A stretch of DNA of 64,000 bases, from contig JAWPMV010000001.1 of the NCBI GenBank assembly GCA_033391075.1, positions 6,262,001 through 6,326,000 of the forward strand. The letters run 5' to 3'. The translations under genes were made by a program, and so were the position numbers. The notes under the pieces are model-generated. The model ran no database searches. It was not told the origin of the DNA and saw nothing but the letters and a program-made list of their open reading frames with translations. Origin of the DNA: Bacteroidia bacterium (lineage in GTDB: Bacteria > Bacteroidota > Bacteroidia > J057). Positions 6,998 to 15,481 of the stretch are shown in pieces; positions within the stretch are counted from its first letter, which is position 1, and each line of letters begins with the position of its first letter.

Positions 6998-7291
6998 ATG
7001 GCTGATTTACCGATAGATATAGAAAAGAGGATTAAAAGAGATTTTCCCAAAAAGAAAGATTACGAAAAGGCAGAAAAATTGCTTTCAGGAATTAAGCAAT
7101 CCTATATAAATGTGGGCAAGGACCAATTGATCCGATCTATCTTATTGATAGCAGCAGGAGACGCAGCTAAAATTCAGGAAATCATCGATAGCAATTTCTA
7201 CCATGATCCACGAGATGTGATCATGATGGGCATGGGAGTCAGTGATAATACGTCTAATTATGGAATTGATCCTTTTGAAGACTTAGCCTAA
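6998..7291 (+). CDS. Small conserved-looking cytosolic protein, function unknown
   Basis: A 97-aa protein without signal peptide or membrane segment; mostly helical (KRDFPKKKDYEKAEKLL, DQLIRSILLIAAGDAAKIQE) with a C-terminal Asp-rich tail. It lies 6 bp behind the DUF4230 pair and is probably the last gene of that operon. I do not recognise a family. Its 3' end overlaps the convergent XdhC gene by 4 bp, so transcription from both sides must end inside coding sequence. Confidence 0.65.
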   Translation: MADLPIDIEKRIKRDFPKKKDYEKAEKLLSGIKQSYINVGKDQLIRSILLIAAGDAAKIQEIIDSNFYHDPRDVIMMGMGVSDNTSNYGIDPFEDLA

Positions 7292-8259
7292 GCCTTTTTC
7301 ATATACTTCTCAGGCTCCTTCTCAAAACTCACTTTACATCCATCGCAGCAAAAGTAAACGGATTCTCCTTCGAATTCGAGTACATGTTTGGCAGCGCTTT
7401 TTTGCACAGGAACCCCGCAAACCGGATTGATGTAAAGATCCTCACTTAAGGTTGATGCGGCAGCAGACTCATCATCATTTACATTGTCTTCCGAACGAAT
7501 AAATGAAATCACCTCTGCAATGATGCTAATAGCTACTTCTTCCGGAAGCTTTGCACCAATATCTAATCCTGCAGGTGTTTTGATTCGTTTGAGTTGGTCG
7601 AAAGAAATACCTCGCTGACGAAGGTTATTGAAAACGGCATTGGCCTTTCTCCTACTCGCCACAAAACTCACATAAGGAACGCCTGAATTTAAGGCTTGTT
7701 CTAATGCGTCTTCATCATTCTCCCCTTGTGTACACACCACAATACAGGTATTGGGGTGTATGAATTTATCTGTAAGGACCTCATCACTTATGGAATCAGC
7801 CGTCACAAAGGCATTAGGATCTGCCTCTCTCGCCAAAACCGTAACCGAATAATCCATGGCTTTTCCGATCCTCGAAAGCGCCATCGCTACATGGGATTTC
7901 CCCATGATCAGCAATTGAGGCCGAGGGAGGACAGGCTCGATATATACTTCCACAGAACCTCCGCTATGACAAGTCATTTTATATTCTTTTACCCCCTTAC
8001 TCACCAGACCCTCTCCATCCGGACTGATCCGGATCAAGCGAGGCTTCCCTTCTTGCATGGACTCAACCGCCTCTTTCAAGATAATTCCACGGGTACAGCC
8101 TCCCCCTATCCATCCAATCAATTTCCCATCCTTTTGGATGATGGCTTTATCTCCCGGCTTACCTGAAGAAGGAATCTGTCGATTCACAACCATCGCAATC
8201 GCAAAGGTTTCTTTATCCTGATACAGCTGATCTGCTGTTTTTAAAAATTCGTTGAACAT
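7288..8259 (-). CDS. XdhC/CoxI-family molybdoenzyme maturation factor fused to a YHS domain
   Basis: The start chosen is the ATG at 8259 (MFNEFLKTADQ); the 18 codons upstream are hairpin-repeat sequence. The 323-aa protein has XdhC N-terminal motifs (WIGGGCTRG, CHSGGSVEVY) and the C-terminal Rossmann part (LLIMGKSHVAMAL to GLDIGAKLPEEVAISI). After a linker comes a YHS domain of about 50 residues with NPVCGVPV and YFCCDGCKVSFEKEP. XdhC proteins deliver sulfurated molybdenum cofactor; YHS domains bind metals through these cysteines. It ends the CO dehydrogenase cluster, whose enzyme needs both sulfur and copper at molybdenum, so a role for the YHS part in copper handling is an attractive inference. 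Confidence 0.85.
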   Translation of the reverse strand: MFNEFLKTADQLYQDKETFAIAMVVNRQIPSSGKPGDKAIIQKDGKLIGWIGGGCTRGIILKEAVESMQEGKPRLIRISPDGEGLVSKGVKEYKMTCHSGGSVEVYIEPVLPRPQLLIMGKSHVAMALSRIGKAMDYSVTVLAREADPNAFVTADSISDEVLTDKFIHPNTCIVVCTQGENDEDALEQALNSGVPYVSFVASRRKANAVFNNLRQRGISFDQLKRIKTPAGLDIGAKLPEEVAISIIAEVISFIRSEDNVNDDESAAASTLSEDLYINPVCGVPVQKSAAKHVLEFEGESVYFCCDGCKVSFEKEPEKYMKKA

Positions 8260-8340: not shown

Positions 8341-9429
8341 TTAAACTTCCTCCAAATACCTCTCTAGCTCCAATAAGCTATTCAAATTATGCGCAGACTG
8401 AAATACATCCAGTTCTGGTAAAGCGGCGGCCATGCCTCTTTGTATCGGTTCGTAGCCTTGCATGCCTTTCAAAGGGTTGAGCCAAATGAGCTTACGTGTT
8501 CGCCGTTTAATTTTATTTAATTCTGTAGCCAGATCTTCCGGTTCCCCCGTATCCAGGCCATCACTTAAAATGATGGTGGTGGAACGACCAGCCAGGACCT
8601 GCTTGGCATATTGTTCATTAAAGGTACGAAAACAGTCTCCGATTTGTGTACCGCTGGACCAGTTATTTGCTTTCATCGATAGGACTGTAAGGGTCCACTC
8701 GAGGTCTTTGGCATCCAAATAGTCTGTGATTCGAATCAGGGAAGTACTAAAGATAAAGGCTTCAACCGTTTCAAAATGTGCCCGAAGCGACCAAATGAAA
8801 CGTAGCAAAAAGAAACTGTATTTATCCATACTTCCACTCACATCCAATAGGATGATGAGCCGCTGTTTCTTGGGAACCTGCTTCCGCCTATGCAATTCTA
8901 TCGGATCTCCACCATGCGAGAGGCTGTTACGAATCGTTTGCCTCAGGTCAACCCTGCCTTGCTTGGTAGAGTTTTTCATCTTGCGTTTGATCCGTTTACT
9001 CATTTGCTGAAAAAGTTTCAAAGCCAATTCTTCCAACATCTGGCTATCTATAGCATTGAGTTTGGAGAAATCGGTCTTACGGATACGCTCCGTTTCATTA
9101 GCTCCGGAAACATTGCGAGCTTCTTCTCCCTCTTCATTGGGCTCCGTTTTTCCGCTACCCATCATGACCAAAGAAGCCGGGGCTTTCTTTTGGATATTAG
9201 ATTGGTTTTGATAGGTAGTTGTGCCAGAAAGCTGTCCCCTTTCATTTCCCCAAAACTGCTCATACAGCTGATCAAAAAGCTCTCCCTCATCCGGTTCACA
9301 GCAAAACAAAGATTTCAAGCCATAGCGAAATTGGGTCTTGTCTTCTAAAAGTCCCGAATCAGCCGCCAATACAGCTTCTTTGGACTCCTGTATGCCTACA
9401 TTGAGTCCATTAAATCTCGCAAATCGCAC
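8341..9429 (-). CDS. coxE: CoxE-like von Willebrand factor A protein
   Basis: The 362-aa protein has a CoxE N-terminal region and a C-terminal VWA domain with an intact MIDAS: LLDVSGSM, a Thr/Ser loop near SSGTQIGDC and ILSDGLDTGEP. CoxE works with the CoxD AAA+ ATPase in maturing the Mo/Cu site of CO dehydrogenase. The first usable codon is GTG at 9429, but the in-frame codons upstream read SEGIISF, which looks like the normal family N-terminus (SFVRFARFNGLNVG). No AUG, GUG or UUG lies in that extension before the stop at 9517-9519, so a rare AUC/AUU start is possible. Confidence 0.85.
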   Translation of the reverse strand: MRFARFNGLNVGIQESKEAVLAADSGLLEDKTQFRYGLKSLFCCEPDEGELFDQLYEQFWGNERGQLSGTTTYQNQSNIQKKAPASLVMMGSGKTEPNEEGEEARNVSGANETERIRKTDFSKLNAIDSQMLEELALKLFQQMSKRIKRKMKNSTKQGRVDLRQTIRNSLSHGGDPIELHRRKQVPKKQRLIILLDVSGSMDKYSFFLLRFIWSLRAHFETVEAFIFSTSLIRITDYLDAKDLEWTLTVLSMKANNWSSGTQIGDCFRTFNEQYAKQVLAGRSTTIILSDGLDTGEPEDLATELNKIKRRTRKLIWLNPLKGMQGYEPIQRGMAAALPELDVFQSAHNLNSLLELERYLEEV

Positions 9430-9585: not shown

Positions 9586-10467
9586 TTAAGCTTCTATTTC
9601 CGTCAACAACTGCTGAATACCCGTACTTTTGACCCGCTGAATATCATCCACTGATTTCAACAGACAGCCCAGGCTTTTCTCAATACCTGCTTCATCCAAA
9701 TCTGCAAACCCCAAAGCCAGTAGTCCTCTGGCCCAGTCCAGGCTTTCTGCAATTCCCGGAGCTTTATCCAGTTTTTGGGTACGGAGATATTGTACCAATT
9801 TCACCATACGGTTCACCAGGGAAACTTCCATATTTGGCAGATGCTTCTGGATGATTTCCATTTCCTTTTCGAGGCTGGGGAAGTTCACCCAATGGTAAAG
9901 GCAGCGCCTTTTGAGGGCATCTCCCAATTCTCGGGTACGATTAGACGTAAGAATCACCCAGGGTCGATGGCTAGCCTGAACGGTTCCCATTTCCGGGATA
10001 CTGATCTGGAAAGCAGAAAGGAGTTCCAGCAGGAAAGCTTCGAATTCTTCGTCTGCACGATCGATTTCATCAATCAAAAGTACCGGAGGCTTTTCACTGG
10101 CCGTAATGGCTTTTAAGAGTGGTCTCTTCAATAGAAATTCAGAACCAAAGATGTGCTCTTCCTTTTCCTCATCGGACTTCTCACTTTGCTCCTGGATTTT
10201 GATGCTCAACAGCTGCTTCTGGTAGTTCCACTCATAAATAGTTGAGTGGACATCCAATCCTTCATAGCATTGGAGTCTGATCAATTCAGTATCCAAAACT
10301 TTGGATAGAACATTCGCAACTTCGGTTTTACCTACTCCAGGATTTCCCTCCAATAAAACGGGTTTCCCTAATTGAAGCATGAGGAACAGGATAGTACCCA
10401 GTTCCTCATCTGCAATATATTTTTGCTGCTCAAAGCTGTCAATGAGCGCATGTATGTTATTAAACAT
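9586..10467 (-). CDS. coxD: CoxD-like MoxR-family AAA+ ATPase
   Basis: The 293-aa ATPase shows Walker A (GNPGVGKTEVAN near residue 41), Walker B (VLLIDEIDRADEEF), sensor 1 (ILTSNRTRELGDALKRRC with the arginine finger) and a C-terminal lid. In Oligotropha-type clusters CoxD is the membrane-associated AAA+ protein needed to place the bridging sulfur in the CODH active site; its VWA partner CoxE is the next gene. It follows coxG by 13 bp and is cotranscribed with it. Confidence 0.9.
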   Translation of the reverse strand: MFNNIHALIDSFEQQKYIADEELGTILFLMLQLGKPVLLEGNPGVGKTEVANVLSKVLDTELIRLQCYEGLDVHSTIYEWNYQKQLLSIKIQEQSEKSDEEKEEHIFGSEFLLKRPLLKAITASEKPPVLLIDEIDRADEEFEAFLLELLSAFQISIPEMGTVQASHRPWVILTSNRTRELGDALKRRCLYHWVNFPSLEKEMEIIQKHLPNMEVSLVNRMVKLVQYLRTQKLDKAPGIAESLDWARGLLALGFADLDEAGIEKSLGCLLKSVDDIQRVKSTGIQQLLTEIEA

Positions 10468-10480
10468 AGGAGAGCCCTAT

Positions 10481-10996
10481 TTATTTCTTCTTACCAAACA
10501 TGCCTTTGATCATAGATCCGGCACTAATACTATTATCAACTTCTCTTCCTGCCAACAGATCCTGAAAATTACCTACAAACTGATCGAAAACAGTATCCGT
10601 AACATCATTGATGAGGCGGGCACCAAATTGGGCCAGCATCCCTGTAATGGTAACTTCCATGGTACAGTTAACTTCTGTTTTGCCATCCACCTCAGATACA
10701 ATTCCATTCATCAACATATCGGCACTTCCTTTTCCTTTAGAATCGAGCCCTTTCCCTTGCATAACCATTTTCCTGGCAGCATTATCTCTTTCCTGAAAAT
10801 GAATTTCACCTGAATATTTAGCCTTAACAGGACCAAATTTCAGACTCACTTCTCCTTTATAATTGTCATCATCTACCTGTTCGGTAAGAGAAGCACCCGG
10901 AACACAAGGAACAATTTTATGAGGATCACTCAGGTGTTCCCAAACTCTGTCCGCAGTATCTTCAATTGTAAAAACTTTATTGATGGTAGTCTTCAT
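10481..10996 (-). CDS. coxG: CoxG-like SRPBCC protein, CO dehydrogenase membrane anchor
   Basis: A 171-aa SRPBCC (START-like) protein with the CoxG pattern: DRVWEHLSDPHKIVPCVPGA, VSLKFGPVKAKYSG, and GMLAQFGARLINDVTD. CoxG binds quinone/lipid and tethers soluble CO dehydrogenase to the cytoplasmic membrane, so that electrons from CO reach the respiratory chain. It ends in a short basic tail (GMFGKKK). Its position between coxL and coxD supports the assignment. Confidence 0.9.
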   Translation of the reverse strand: MKTTINKVFTIEDTADRVWEHLSDPHKIVPCVPGASLTEQVDDDNYKGEVSLKFGPVKAKYSGEIHFQERDNAARKMVMQGKGLDSKGKGSADMLMNGIVSEVDGKTEVNCTMEVTITGMLAQFGARLINDVTDTVFDQFVGNFQDLLAGREVDNSISAGSMIKGMFGKKK

Positions 10997-11132: not shown

Positions 11133-13499
11133 TTAGATCGCTCCTTTTTCTTTCAAAGTCTTCCAGACTTTAAATGGAGTAATTGGAATTTCCATATGGG
11201 TAACTCCCAGGTGAGACATCGCATCTACAATTGCATTGGCAATCGCAGGAGGTGCACCAACCGTTGGAGATTCCCCTACGCCTTTTGCACCTATTGGGTG
11301 GTGAGGAGAAGGAGTTACGGTATGACCCGTTTCCCAACTTGGAGACTCTACTGCAGTAGGTACCAGGTAGTCCATGAATGTACCATTGAGGATGTTTCCA
11401 TCATCATCATAAATAAGCGACTCATACATTGCCGGAGCAATCCCCTGAGTCAAGCCTCCATGTACCTGTCCCTGTACAATCATCGGATTGATGATATTAC
11501 CACAGTCATCAATTGCTACAAAGCGACGAACATCGATCTGGCCCGTTTCCTTATCTATGTCAACTACACAGATATATGCACCTGAAGGGAAAGTCAGGTT
11601 GGGTGGATCATAATAATGTGTGGTTTCGAAACCAGCTTCCATGCCCTGAGGATGGTTGGTATAGGCTGCGAAAACCAGTTCCTGTATCGTCTTGGACTTC
11701 TCAGGAGCACCTTTCACAAAGAATTTACCAGGCTCCCACTCCAGGTCTTCTTCACTAACTTCTAATAGATATGCAGCGATTTTTTTCGCCTTGTCGCGAA
11801 GCTTCCTCGCAGCAACAGCAGCAGCAGCTCCTGCAGTCGGGGTAGATCTACTTGCATAGGTTCCCAATCCATAAGGAGCGGTATCTGTATCACCTTCTTC
11901 GACCTGGATGTGTTCCATAGGAATACCCAGTTCCTGAGCGATGATCTGTGCATAAGTAGTTTCATGCCCTTGTCCCTGAGATTTTGTACCAAAGCGGGCA
12001 ATGGCTTTACCTGTCGGGTGCACACGAATCTCAGCAGAGTCAAACATTTTGATTCCAAGAATGTCAAAGTCTTTAGAGGGTCCTGCACCTACAATTTCTG
12101 TGAAAGTAGATATGCCGATTCCCATCAATTCGCCTTTGGCTCTTTTCTCAGCCTGCTCTTTTCTCAATTCATCATAACCGACTGCATCCATAGCCTTCTG
12201 AAGGCCTGCATGGTAGTCTCCAGAGTCATATTCCCAACCTGTAGGAGATTTCCAGGGGAAGTCTTCTTTTTTGATGAAGTTCTCCATACGGAGCTGAGCG
12301 GGATCTTTACCGATCTCAAGTGCAAGACGATCGGTGATACGCTCAATGGCATGTACGGCTTCCGTTACACGGAAAGAACAACGGTAGGCAACACCACCTG
12401 GGGGTTTATTGGTATAAACCGCATCTGCTTCCATATATGAAGCGCCATAATCATACGATCCCGTACCAATTGAATACAATCCCGTAGGGAACTTGGAAGG
12501 ATTCGCTGAAGCATCTGTATATCCGTGGTCAGCCAGGATTTTGAAACGAGTCGCGAGGATTTTTCCTTCTTTGGTAGCGGCCATCTCAGCGGTGATGTGA
12601 TAATCACGTGCAAAAGAGTCTGCCTGGAGGTTTTCGCTTCTATCTTCGATCCATTTAACGGGCTTACCTACGAGGAAAGAAACTGCAATAGCAATCACAT
12701 AGCCGGGATAGACCGGTACTTTTCCTCCGAAACCTCCTCCAATATCTGGAGAGATCACGCGGATTTTTTCTTCTGTCAATCCTACATGTCCTGCAACAAG
12801 TGCAATCACTGTACGAATGGCGTGAGGAGCCTGTGTAGTCATATACATGGTCAGATGATTATTGACCTTGTCATAATCTGCTACACAGCCACAAGTTTCA
12901 ATAGAAGCAACGTGGATACGAGGAATGTGCATCTGCTCTTTAACGGTCACATCTGCTTCTTCAAAAACCTTATCGGTTTTTTCTTTATCTCCAGCTTTCC
13001 AATTCCAGATATGGTTATCTGTTTTTCCTTCCTTATCCGGGCGGAGTAGGGGAGCATCATCATTCAGCGCTTTATATGGATCCATCAAAGGCTTCATCGG
13101 TTCGTATTCGACGATGACAGCTTCCTTTCCATCACGAGCTGCATAACGGCTGGTGGCGATCACCGCACAAACTTCCTGAGCCTGATACATTACCGTATCG
13201 GTAGGCAGTACCATTTGGGTATCCGACATAAGGGTAGGCATCCAGTGGAGATTGTATTGCTCCAAAGCCTTACCATCTACAACTGCAACAACCCCATCGA
13301 TTGCCATGGCGGCATCGGTATTGATCTTTTTTATTTTTGCGTAGGCATAGGGACTTCTAACGATGTCCATGTAGAGCATGCCTGGCAATTTGATATCATC
13401 TACGTAATTCCCTTTTCCCTGGATGAAACGGTCGTCCTCTTTTCTCTTCATAGAGTGCCCCATTCCTCCAATTTCCTTGGGAGTATCACATTTTATCAT
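11133..13499 (-). CDS. coxL: Form I aerobic carbon monoxide dehydrogenase, large (Mo/Cu) subunit
   Basis: The 788-aa protein belongs to the xanthine-oxidase family. The active-site loop reads AYRCSFR at residues 371-377 (12369-12389), the signature that separates true form I CoxL from form II proteins; Cys374 would be the copper ligand. Other cofactor motifs are IGGGFGGKVP near 253, TKSQGQGHETTYAQI, and GVGESPTVGAPPAI with the catalytic Glu near the C-terminus. The enzyme oxidises CO to CO2 in the cytosol and passes electrons through CoxS and CoxM. Length is close to the family norm of about 800. Confidence 0.97.
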   Translation of the reverse strand: MIKCDTPKEIGGMGHSMKRKEDDRFIQGKGNYVDDIKLPGMLYMDIVRSPYAYAKIKKINTDAAMAIDGVVAVVDGKALEQYNLHWMPTLMSDTQMVLPTDTVMYQAQEVCAVIATSRYAARDGKEAVIVEYEPMKPLMDPYKALNDDAPLLRPDKEGKTDNHIWNWKAGDKEKTDKVFEEADVTVKEQMHIPRIHVASIETCGCVADYDKVNNHLTMYMTTQAPHAIRTVIALVAGHVGLTEEKIRVISPDIGGGFGGKVPVYPGYVIAIAVSFLVGKPVKWIEDRSENLQADSFARDYHITAEMAATKEGKILATRFKILADHGYTDASANPSKFPTGLYSIGTGSYDYGASYMEADAVYTNKPPGGVAYRCSFRVTEAVHAIERITDRLALEIGKDPAQLRMENFIKKEDFPWKSPTGWEYDSGDYHAGLQKAMDAVGYDELRKEQAEKRAKGELMGIGISTFTEIVGAGPSKDFDILGIKMFDSAEIRVHPTGKAIARFGTKSQGQGHETTYAQIIAQELGIPMEHIQVEEGDTDTAPYGLGTYASRSTPTAGAAAAVAARKLRDKAKKIAAYLLEVSEEDLEWEPGKFFVKGAPEKSKTIQELVFAAYTNHPQGMEAGFETTHYYDPPNLTFPSGAYICVVDIDKETGQIDVRRFVAIDDCGNIINPMIVQGQVHGGLTQGIAPAMYESLIYDDDGNILNGTFMDYLVPTAVESPSWETGHTVTPSPHHPIGAKGVGESPTVGAPPAIANAIVDAMSHLGVTHMEIPITPFKVWKTLKEKGAI

Positions 13500-13530: not shown

Positions 13531-14034
13531 TTAAACGAACTCTGGTTCAGTGGATGGCAATTCGTCTCCACGGATCTTTGCTCCAGCATACTGGATCGCT
13601 TTCACGATATTATTGTAGCCAGTGCAACGGCAAAGGTTTCCGGAAATACCCCAGCGAATTTCTTCTTCAGTCGGGTTGGGATTATTTTCCAAAAGTTCTA
13701 CTGCACGCATCATCATACCAGGGGTACAAAATCCACAGTGAAGACCATGATTTTCTTTAAAGCCTTCTTGAATTGGATGAAGGCCTTCTGTAGTAGCCAG
13801 ACCTTCTACGGTGATAATCTCTTTACCATCTGCCTGAATAGCCAGCATAGTACAAGACTTTATCGATTTGCCATCAACCAAAATAGTACAAGCTCCACAG
13901 CTACTGGTATCGCAGCCAATGTGAGTACCTGTTTGGTTGAGGTTTTCCCGGATCAAGTGAACCAAAAGGAGTCGGGGTTCCACTTCCAGGCTTTGTTTTT
14001 CTCCATTAAGGGTAATGGTTATTTCCTTTGTCAT
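13531..14034 (-). CDS. coxS: CO dehydrogenase small subunit, two [2Fe-2S] clusters
   Basis: A 167-aa ferredoxin-type subunit. The plant-type cluster is bound by Cys41, Cys46, Cys49 and Cys61, and the C-terminal cluster by Cys100, Cys103, Cys135 and Cys137 (HCGFCTPG and GNLCRCTGY), all present. It carries electrons from the CoxL molybdenum site to the FAD of CoxM. Spacing is 26 bp to coxM and 31 bp to coxL, which indicates one transcript. Confidence 0.96.
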
Positions 14035-14060: not shown

Positions 14061-14927
14061 TTATTGTGCTCTTTCCATTGCTTTGTGGATCATACGCTTG
14101 GTGAGCACTCCCACCATTGCTCTTTTGTATTCCTCGTCTCCCCGTAGGTCATCAGAAGGATTACAATCTTCAGATGCGAATTGAGCGGCCTGAGCAATAA
14201 CTTCTTCCGTAAGTTTGTTGCCCAAAAGTGCTTGCTCAGATCTCTCTGCACGAAGAGGAGTAGGATTCACATTGGTAAGTCCGATGCCTGCATAGGTACA
14301 AACACCCTCACTATCCAACGTGAGTTGAACAGCAACTCCAGCAGTCGCATAATCCCCTACTTTTCTTTCGAGCTTATGATAAGCATTGCCTGTTCCGGCA
14401 GCGGGGATCGGGATACGAATTTCTGTCAGGATATCAGTCTCGCCTAAAGCAGTCATGTAAAATCCATAAAAGAATTCGTCAATAGGAATGGTTCTCTGGC
14501 CTTCGGGGCCGGTAGCTACGACTTCCGCACGCATCGCCAGCATCACTGCCGGATGGTCATTAGCCGCATCGCCATGTGCAAGGTTTCCCCCGATAGTACC
14601 CATATTTCTTACCTGAGGATCTGCAATCAATTTCGTTGCATCCAGGAAGATGGGATACTTGCCGGGAATAGTGTCCGAGTGTTCCAATTCCGCTTCTTTG
14701 GTAAGCGCCCCTATTTTCAGGAAACCATCTTCTTCCTTGATATAAGAAAGACCCGGAATATTGTTAATGTCAATCAATTGTTCCGGAGAGGCAAACCGCA
14801 ATTTCATCATCGGCAACAGGCTATGGCCTCCTGCGAGAATCTTTGCTTCGTCCCCAAGTTCCTGCAATAAGGAAATCGCTTCATCTAGCGTCGTCGGAGC
14901 ATAGTAGTCAAACGGGGCTGGTATCAT
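14061..14927 (-). CDS. coxM: CO dehydrogenase medium subunit, FAD-binding
   Basis: A 288-aa subunit of the CO dehydrogenase FAD family, with AGGHSLLPMMKLR near residue 37 and TIGGNLAHGDAANDHPA near 110 as flavin-binding loops and a CoxM C-terminal domain with GLTNVNPTPLRA. It is the first gene of the cox cluster in the order M-S-L, the arrangement typical of form I enzymes. In the 77 bp upstream I see only an imperfect -7-like CAAAGGTTA, so the promoter is not assigned. Confidence 0.96.
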   Translation of the reverse strand: MIPAPFDYYAPTTLDEAISLLQELGDEAKILAGGHSLLPMMKLRFASPEQLIDINNIPGLSYIKEEDGFLKIGALTKEAELEHSDTIPGKYPIFLDATKLIADPQVRNMGTIGGNLAHGDAANDHPAVMLAMRAEVVATGPEGQRTIPIDEFFYGFYMTALGETDILTEIRIPIPAAGTGNAYHKLERKVGDYATAGVAVQLTLDSEGVCTYAGIGLTNVNPTPLRAERSEQALLGNKLTEEVIAQAAQFASEDCNPSDDLRGDEEYKRAMVGVLTKRMIHKAMERAQ

Positions 14928-15004: not shown

Positions 15005-15481
15005 TTATTGAAGCTGCTTTCGCCCAAATAAATAGGCCCCCAGAGGCTTGAGGTATTGATGGAAGAAATACAAAAAATTTGCATTGATCCATACGCCCAG
15101 CATCAAAATGCCTGCTCCCAGAAAATAATGTAGCTTTTCGCCCGTATAAAGTTCGCTGGTAGCAACCAGCAAAATCCCACCTATTACTAGCGCTGATGCA
15201 TACCAGGTTCTTTTGCCCCTTCGATTGATCAGGACAAACAACAGGGTCAGCAATCCAAGACCTATAGAGATAAAGGAAGTCCATTCCGGACTGTGATCAT
15301 AATAGGTCCCTTTGCCACACACCGTAACGGCACTGGAATAAGCGAGAATGCAAAAATGACACTTAGGTAAAAGCGCCAAACCAATCCCACCGAGTATGGA
15401 AAAAGAGCTTTTTTTAGCCTCTTTTTTCGCACGGGAATTGCACTTGCAAGAAGGTATTACACGAGGTGCAGTAGGAGTCAT
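15005..15481 (-). CDS. Small polytopic membrane protein with a cysteine-rich N-terminus, function unknown
   Basis: The ATG at 15481 gives 158 aa; a TTG seven codons upstream is less likely. The N-terminus has SCKCNSRAKKEAKK, then a first membrane segment with LLPKCHFCILAY, and further hydrophobic segments, about four helices in all. The CKC and CHFC pairs could bind metal or form a thiol pair, as in mercury-transport-like proteins, but I do not recognise a family. It sits between the sugar porter and coxM on the same strand; no functional link to CODH can be claimed. Confidence 0.6.
   Translation of the reverse strand: MTPTAPRVIPSCKCNSRAKKEAKKSSFSILGGIGLALLPKCHFCILAYSSAVTVCGKGTYYDHSPEWTSFISIGLGLLTLLFVLINRRGKRTWYASALVIGGILLVATSELYTGEKLHYFLGAGILMLGVWINANFLYFFHQYLKPLGAYLFGRKQLQ

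Follow-up and report, generated by a model that had tools for sequence, protein, structure and literature searches.

A C-terminal YHS tail on CoxF of form I CO dehydrogenase operons is a candidate copper-docking module

Introduction

CoxF has been studied in Oligotropha (Afipia) carboxidovorans, where Pelzmann et al. inserted cassettes in coxE and coxF of pHCG3 in 2014 (PMC4240915). CO dehydrogenase from the coxF mutant, F::km, contained 0.043 Cu per mol and that from the coxE mutant, E::km, 0.00, versus approximately 1.5 in the wild type; Mo, FAD, Fe and sulfane sulfur were kept in both mutant enzymes (PMC4240915). In the model proposed there, CoxF supplies copper by means of M107CPSHGTM as a suspected site, RHGxRxP as a phytase motif and RGD for contact with CoxE; a protective role of CoxF towards the sulfur ligand of Mo was also suggested (PMC4240915). 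The published F::km phenotype is not that of CoxF alone, because the mutant is also without the CoxE protein. The O. carboxidovorans protein has an XdhC body with the signature CxSxG and is encoded in an operon with coxMSL, coxD, coxE and coxG.

The Moco chaperones XdhC, CoxI, PaoD and YqeB have the same PF02625 plus PF13478 architecture and the same fold as CoxF. Unlike CoxF, they have the motif CGG, carry no metal-binding tail and are found beside copper-free or form II enzymes. A cysteine conserved in almost all XdhC proteins is Cys82 in XdhC of R. capsulatus (PMC2997495).

YHS domains (PF04945) are found in the adenylyl cyclase of Mycobacterium phlei and in Cu-transporting P-type ATPases, with the spacing D/N-x-x-C ... 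C-x-x-x-C (PMC4626032). In the cyclase, the proposed ligands are D178, C181, C204 and C208, and the YHS domain mediates an activation of the enzyme that is specific to Cu2+ (PMC4626032). The YHS domain of toluene hydroxylase had no metal in the crystal, and the TRASH-type fold of ribosomal protein L24e can hold Cd (PMC4626032). While a copper donor of the XdhC family is prior art, no description of a YHS tail on an XdhC protein or CO dehydrogenase factor was found in the open-access literature that was searched, and within that scope the CoxF tail appears to be undescribed.

Results

The cox operon and CoxF of the window

The window is the whole stretch of DNA that was analysed, 64,000 nucleotides from a Bacteroidia bacterium (contig JAWPMV010000001.1, positions 6,262,001 to 6,326,000). 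It contains a seven-gene run on the minus strand, coxM, coxS, coxL, coxG, coxD, coxE and coxF, with coxF last (Table 1). The active-site loop of CoxL and its TIGR02416 score above the cut-off identify the enzyme as form I, the copper-containing type, which bears out the CO dehydrogenase operon of the earlier note.

Table 1. Features of the cox locus in the window
Feature	Position	Strand	Description
Uncharacterised membrane protein	15005..15481	(-)	approximately four helices; LPKCHFC; 77 bp upstream of coxM, first gene of cox operon
coxM	14061..14927	(-)	FAD subunit; PF00941/PF03450
coxS	13531..14034	(-)	2Fe-2S subunit; PF01799/PF00111
coxL	11133..13499	(-)	form I (Mo-Cu) CO dehydrogenase large subunit; TIGR02416, 1217 versus cut-off 991 bits
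CoxL active-site loop	12369..12389	(-)	AYRCSFR, residues 371-377; sequence
coxG	10481..10996	(-)	PF06240 COXG, E 6e-22
coxD	9586..10467	(-)	MoxR-like AAA+ ATPase; AAA_5, E 1e-12; MadB-like, E 4e-79 but under its own cut-off
coxE	8341..9429	(-)	VWA-domain protein; PF05762 VWA_CoxE, E 5e-58
coxF	7288..8259	(-)	XdhC family with C-terminal YHS tail; 323 aa, ATG at 8259
CoxF signature	7957..7971	(-)	C97-H-S99-G-G101 (CxSxG), in place of the CGG of other XdhC proteins
CoxF YHS domain	7297..7431	(-)	residues 277-321; PF04945, E 4e-12; N278, C281, C304, C305, C308

The last gene of the run is coxF with very high confidence. Its product matches PF02625 (XdhC_CoxI) over residues 14-78 with an E of 4e-15 and PF13478 (XdhC_C) over residues 116-250 with an E of 1e-30, both above the gathering cut-off, and the YHS profile PF04945 at 46.3 bits versus a curated cut-off of 30.3. 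NPVCGVPV and YFCCDGC are both found in the tail. Thus the Pfam profiles and the sequence agree with the earlier note, which had described an XdhC body followed by a YHS domain with NPVCGVPV and CCDGC. A domain of metal-binding type is indeed fused to an XdhC-family protein of a form I operon. The protein is below two equivalog cut-offs, TIGR02964 for XdhC of xanthine dehydrogenase (45 versus 161.6 bits) and NF045664 (143 versus 350 bits).

An AF2 model built with 72 homologues (mean pLDDT 92.5, pTM 0.84) shows the two XdhC domains and, beyond a weaker linker, a tail that folds separately. Residues 1-256 resemble the solved XdhC-like structures 2we8, 2we7 and 3on5 with Z of 18-20 (2we8, Z 19.7). 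The Foldseek and VIA structure matches span the XdhC body only and are uninformative on the YHS part. On the plus strand, a convergent ORF of 97 aa without a Pfam match (window 6998-7291) shares its last four bases with the end of coxF.

Spread of the fusion

The XdhC-YHS fusion is found in Bacteroidota, Chloroflexota, Acidobacteriota, Gemmatimonadota, Rokubacteria, SAR324, some Proteobacteria and a haloarchaeon. Because the same domain order and gene order recur in tens of independent genomes, the fusion is not due to chance or to an assembly artefact. Full-length forms are carried on plasmids of Thermomicrobium roseum, Paraburkholderia, Caballeronia, Deinococcus and the haloarchaeon Natronorubrum, and the loop of CoxL reads VAYRCSFR in T. 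roseum, Paraburkholderia, Deinococcus and Natronorubrum alike. In CoxF of Deinococcus sp. AJ005 (L019:10001-11059), the YHS domain is degenerate (PVDGEEI ... FTCANC), has lost two of the usual cysteines and falls just under the Pfam cut-off; it may be decaying.

A pattern scan with the XdhC body in 84,980 species genomes gave at least 519 relatives. The scan used a six-sequence alignment, as the first nine CoxF sequences were together too diverse. YHS is present in nearly all of the best 80 loci, a share that is overstated because these were ranked by likeness to a YHS-bearing query. These loci come from Bacteroidota, Acidobacteriota, Chloroflexota, Gemmatimonadota, Rokubacteria, Calditrichota, SAR324 and KSB1, with a few from Proteobacteria. 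Wherever the active-site loop of an adjacent coxL could be read, it was AYRCSFR. One Calditrichia MAG encodes a CoxF with two tandem YHS domains (L062:1248-2390; PF04945, E 4e-25, two stretches). Actinobacteriota are represented by a single CoxF record, the tail-less protein of Nonomuraea. In viral contigs there were three pattern matches and no relative. The fusion is not peculiar to the operon of the window; among the CoxF lineages covered here, no other architecture is as common.

Association of the tail with form I coxL

A survey was made of every XdhC_C match in 120 Pseudomonadota and 61 Chloroflexota genomes (181), for which the surroundings were fetched, and it comprised 160 distinct XdhC ORFs. 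YHS was present on 10 of these, all 10 within 3 kb of a form I coxL; a further 10 had a form I coxL within 3 kb and no YHS, and 140 had neither. Accordingly, YHS was on 0 of the 140 surveyed ORFs that lack a form I coxL neighbour (Fisher p 8e-11, a value that is optimistic given the related genomes). Those beside form II enzymes (AYRGAGR) or other members of the xanthine-oxidase family were never YHS-tailed in this set of 160. The earlier note had named fusions occurring equally beside copper-free xanthine dehydrogenases as one observation that would speak against it, and in the survey none was found away from form I coxL. When all loci are taken together, CoxF-type proteins carry 97 YHS and 6 HMA tails, and none is on the 176 other XdhC ORFs.

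The survey also separates CoxF from its relatives by the signature in the XdhC body. ORFs with CxSxG were all in form I operons where the neighbourhood was readable. In the other XdhC ORFs the motif, when it could be located, was CGG, CCGG or a similar form. Among CxSxG-type proteins, YHS was present on 9 of 9 in Chloroflexota and on 1 of 8 in Pseudomonadota. In loci of YHS-less CoxF, no standalone YHS or HMA gene was found that could be a split version of the fusion.

CxSxG of the window CoxF is at the same place as the suspected copper motif of the O. carboxidovorans protein, and its cysteine appears to align with Cys82 of R. capsulatus XdhC. Since that cysteine is in almost all XdhC proteins, it is by itself no evidence for copper; its CoxF-specific surroundings may be. 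The other published motifs are rare. RHGxR is present in 1 of 111 collected CoxF entries (in a few cases a gene was entered twice), namely O. carboxidovorans itself, and RGD in 16 of the 111; therefore, these parts of the published model are not general.

Ligands and subtype of the tail

In 91 distinct CoxF tails, Cys281 and Cys304 are each present in 90, Cys308 in all 91 and Cys305 in 82, and the linker from the XdhC body to the YHS domain is usually 14-37 residues long. Positions 278, 281, 304 and 308 correspond, with the same spacing, to D178, C181, C204 and C208 of the M. phlei cyclase. Compared with the pattern D-x-x-C...C-x-x-x-C, the window tail has the three cysteines, and Asn278 at the first position. 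All 40 Bacteroidota tails have Asn at residue 278; among the others Asp predominates, and it accounts for about half of the CoxF tails overall.

Position 305 sets these tails apart. In 33 background YHS domains from Pseudomonadota, mostly of P-type ATPases, nearly all that keep the cysteines have Ser there (FCS), and Cys occurs only in the single XdhC-YHS among the 33. With FCC in 82 of 91 versus FCS in the sampled background, CoxF tails look like a YHS subtype of their own. The tail is highly likely to bind a metal; whether this is Cu, Zn or Fe is beyond what the sequence of the tail can tell.

Exchange and history of the tail

In five genomes of the phylum Bacteroidota, CoxF has an HMA domain (PF00403, E of approximately 3e-10) in the place of YHS, with the motif GMSCAHC or AMSCAHC. 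The operons are full form I operons and their CoxL proteins are 76-87% identical to that of the window. By kinship these genomes are probably Rhodothermus-like, and one of them (L070) matches Roseithermus sacchariphilus. The nearest solved relatives of the CoxF HMA domain are ATP7B, CopA and CopZ, whose HMA domains resemble the GMSCAHC tail; their fold is unrelated to YHS, and the window CoxF has no HMA domain. Two unrelated folds at one position, with metal binding common to both, argue that the tail holds a metal and that the metal is copper, and this is the strongest argument that the sequences provide.

A tree was built from 53 CoxF bodies, with the tails left out, and 11 other XdhC proteins. 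Here, the window CoxF groups with that of O. carboxidovorans and not with other XdhC proteins (support for the CoxF side, 87/93). Three changes of tail state are needed. The YHS-less Proteobacteria, O. carboxidovorans included, are nested next to YHS-bearing Chromatiaceae and SAR324, and the tail-less Nonomuraea protein pairs with a single YHS-bearing CoxF of Chloroflexota. The HMA group (support 97/86) is inside the YHS-bearing part of the tree, and the row nearest to it is the tandem-YHS protein of Calditrichia. A placement of YHS-less CoxF outside all tail-bearing CoxF is rejected by the AU test (p 0.0007). Most likely, YHS was present early and was lost at least twice, with moderate support for the root (87/93) and varying backbone values. 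Oligotropha CoxF, which has no YHS and is the sole CoxF to have been studied, most likely represents such a loss inside a YHS-bearing clade.

A membrane protein upstream of coxM

The membrane protein upstream of coxM has a conserved PKC(P/H)xC and a Cys-rich N-terminus and is modelled with a pLDDT of 75. Of the 30 Bacteroidota cox loci with upstream sequence, 26 have it, either adjoining coxM or one or two genes upstream of it. It is in no cox locus assigned to another phylum, except for one MAG labelled Thalassobius, and elsewhere in Bacteroidota it is rare, with a strong match in 1 of 292 genomes, which is the window's own. In some Bacteroidota cox loci (for example L050:2059-3404), a ThiS/MoaD-like sulfur-carrier gene and a BNR/sortilin-like beta-propeller gene lie between it and coxM. 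Likeness to MerC is weak and an identity as MerC is unsupported: PF03203 gave an E of 0.3 for the window protein and 0.003-0.02 for its relatives, all under the cut-off, and a profile comparison gave 30% probability. A distant, weak relative with FPKCPMC (L342:26-1887, Bacteroidota genome G017) lies 44 bp downstream of a gene for a copper enzyme of the tyrosinase family (PF00264, E 5e-33). As a lead, the membrane protein is a candidate copper importer.

Discussion

The reading that we favour, at a probability of about two in three, is that the YHS tail is a copper-docking module on the delivery path of CoxF, from which Cu would go to the CxSxG site and then to CoxL; the binding of copper and the order of transfer are inferred. 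Here, CoxD would drive sulfuration of the Mo site of form I CO dehydrogenase, and once this is complete CoxF, with CoxE, would insert Cu(I) there. With the cytosolic pool or a membrane importer as the source, the tail would load copper on Cys281, Cys304 and Cys308 (plus Cys305 and residue 278) and pass it to the C97-x-S-x-G site of the XdhC body, and from C97 the copper would go to the Mo-SH of CoxL. The earlier note had envisaged both sulfur and copper placement in one protein. This is unlikely, as CoxD is credited with sulfuration and the folded apoenzyme already contains the Mo cofactor (PMC4240915). The idea of copper delivery itself gains from the finding that a CopZ-like HMA domain can replace YHS, but it is not new, as an earlier proposal of CoxF as the donor came with data from mutants (PMC4240915).

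Several points stand against copper docking. CoxF of O. carboxidovorans, to which the genetic evidence for copper insertion belongs, is unlike the window protein in having 280 aa and neither a YHS nor an HMA tail, and it still supports Cu insertion, so that the tail is not a requirement throughout the family. The proposed fourth ligand at 278 is Asn rather than Asp in all of the Bacteroidota tails, and the YHS domain of toluene hydroxylase is metal-free in the crystal (PMC4626032). The F::km phenotype also reflects the loss of CoxE, and sequence does not distinguish Cu from Zn or Fe.

The tail could instead be a copper sensor on the model of the M. phlei adenylyl cyclase: metal binding would shift CoxF from one docking state to another, and the tail itself would be off the transfer path. 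The only YHS domain with functional data that was found is regulatory (PMC4626032), and the length of the linker fits a tethered regulator or an arm. Sequence does little to separate a sensor from a carrier, but the HMA replacement fits delivery better, and we consider the sensor unlikely. HMA relatives mostly pass Cu(I) on by direct contact. Alternatively, the cysteines of the tail could be a persulfide or thiol relay that carries sulfane sulfur to Mo-SH or protects it, with copper entering otherwise. The vicinal pair in FCC suits thiol chemistry, NifS4, a cysteine desulfurase, is the partner of R. capsulatus XdhC in the sulfuration of Moco (PMC2997495), and CoxF has been suggested as the protector of the Mo sulfur ligand (PMC4240915). 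Such a relay is improbable given that the tail is on 0 of 143 non-CoxF XdhC ORFs of the survey, although sulfurated copper-free enzymes need the same sulfur step, that sulfur was kept in F::km CO dehydrogenase (PMC4240915), and that a Cu(I) domain type, HMA, occupies the same place.

It is very improbable that the tail has no role in copper and is instead a structural zinc module or a surface on which CoxE or CoxL docks. Cd in L24e (PMC4626032) makes other metals possible in this fold; on the other side are the strict link to a copper enzyme, the near-invariant ligands and the swap with an unrelated fold in which metal binding is the sole common feature.

Returning to copper docking, a wider picture can be offered tentatively, at somewhat less than even odds: CoxF would be modular, its early form having a tethered copper-docking tail that was exchanged among unrelated folds for copper binding (YHS, tandem YHS, HMA) and was lost in Proteobacteria, and the Bacteroidota operon would add a dedicated copper importer with LPKC(P/H)FC. 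If this is true, the one CoxF that has been studied by experiment is a derived form stripped of its tail, and the copper route would be complete from the membrane to the Mo-S-Cu site.

Aerobic CO dehydrogenase is the enzyme responsible for aerobic CO oxidation, and the published model of how Cu(I) reaches its Mo-S-Cu centre is built on short motifs in one species. Across lineages, the phytase motif is not conserved; what is conserved is a CoxF-specific cysteine site together with an exchangeable metal-binding tail. That HMA can take the position of YHS specifically implicates copper and tells which residues to mutate. The tail makes the older idea of copper delivery directly testable, and the organisms of choice for its study would be those with a tail-bearing CoxF, rather than Oligotropha.
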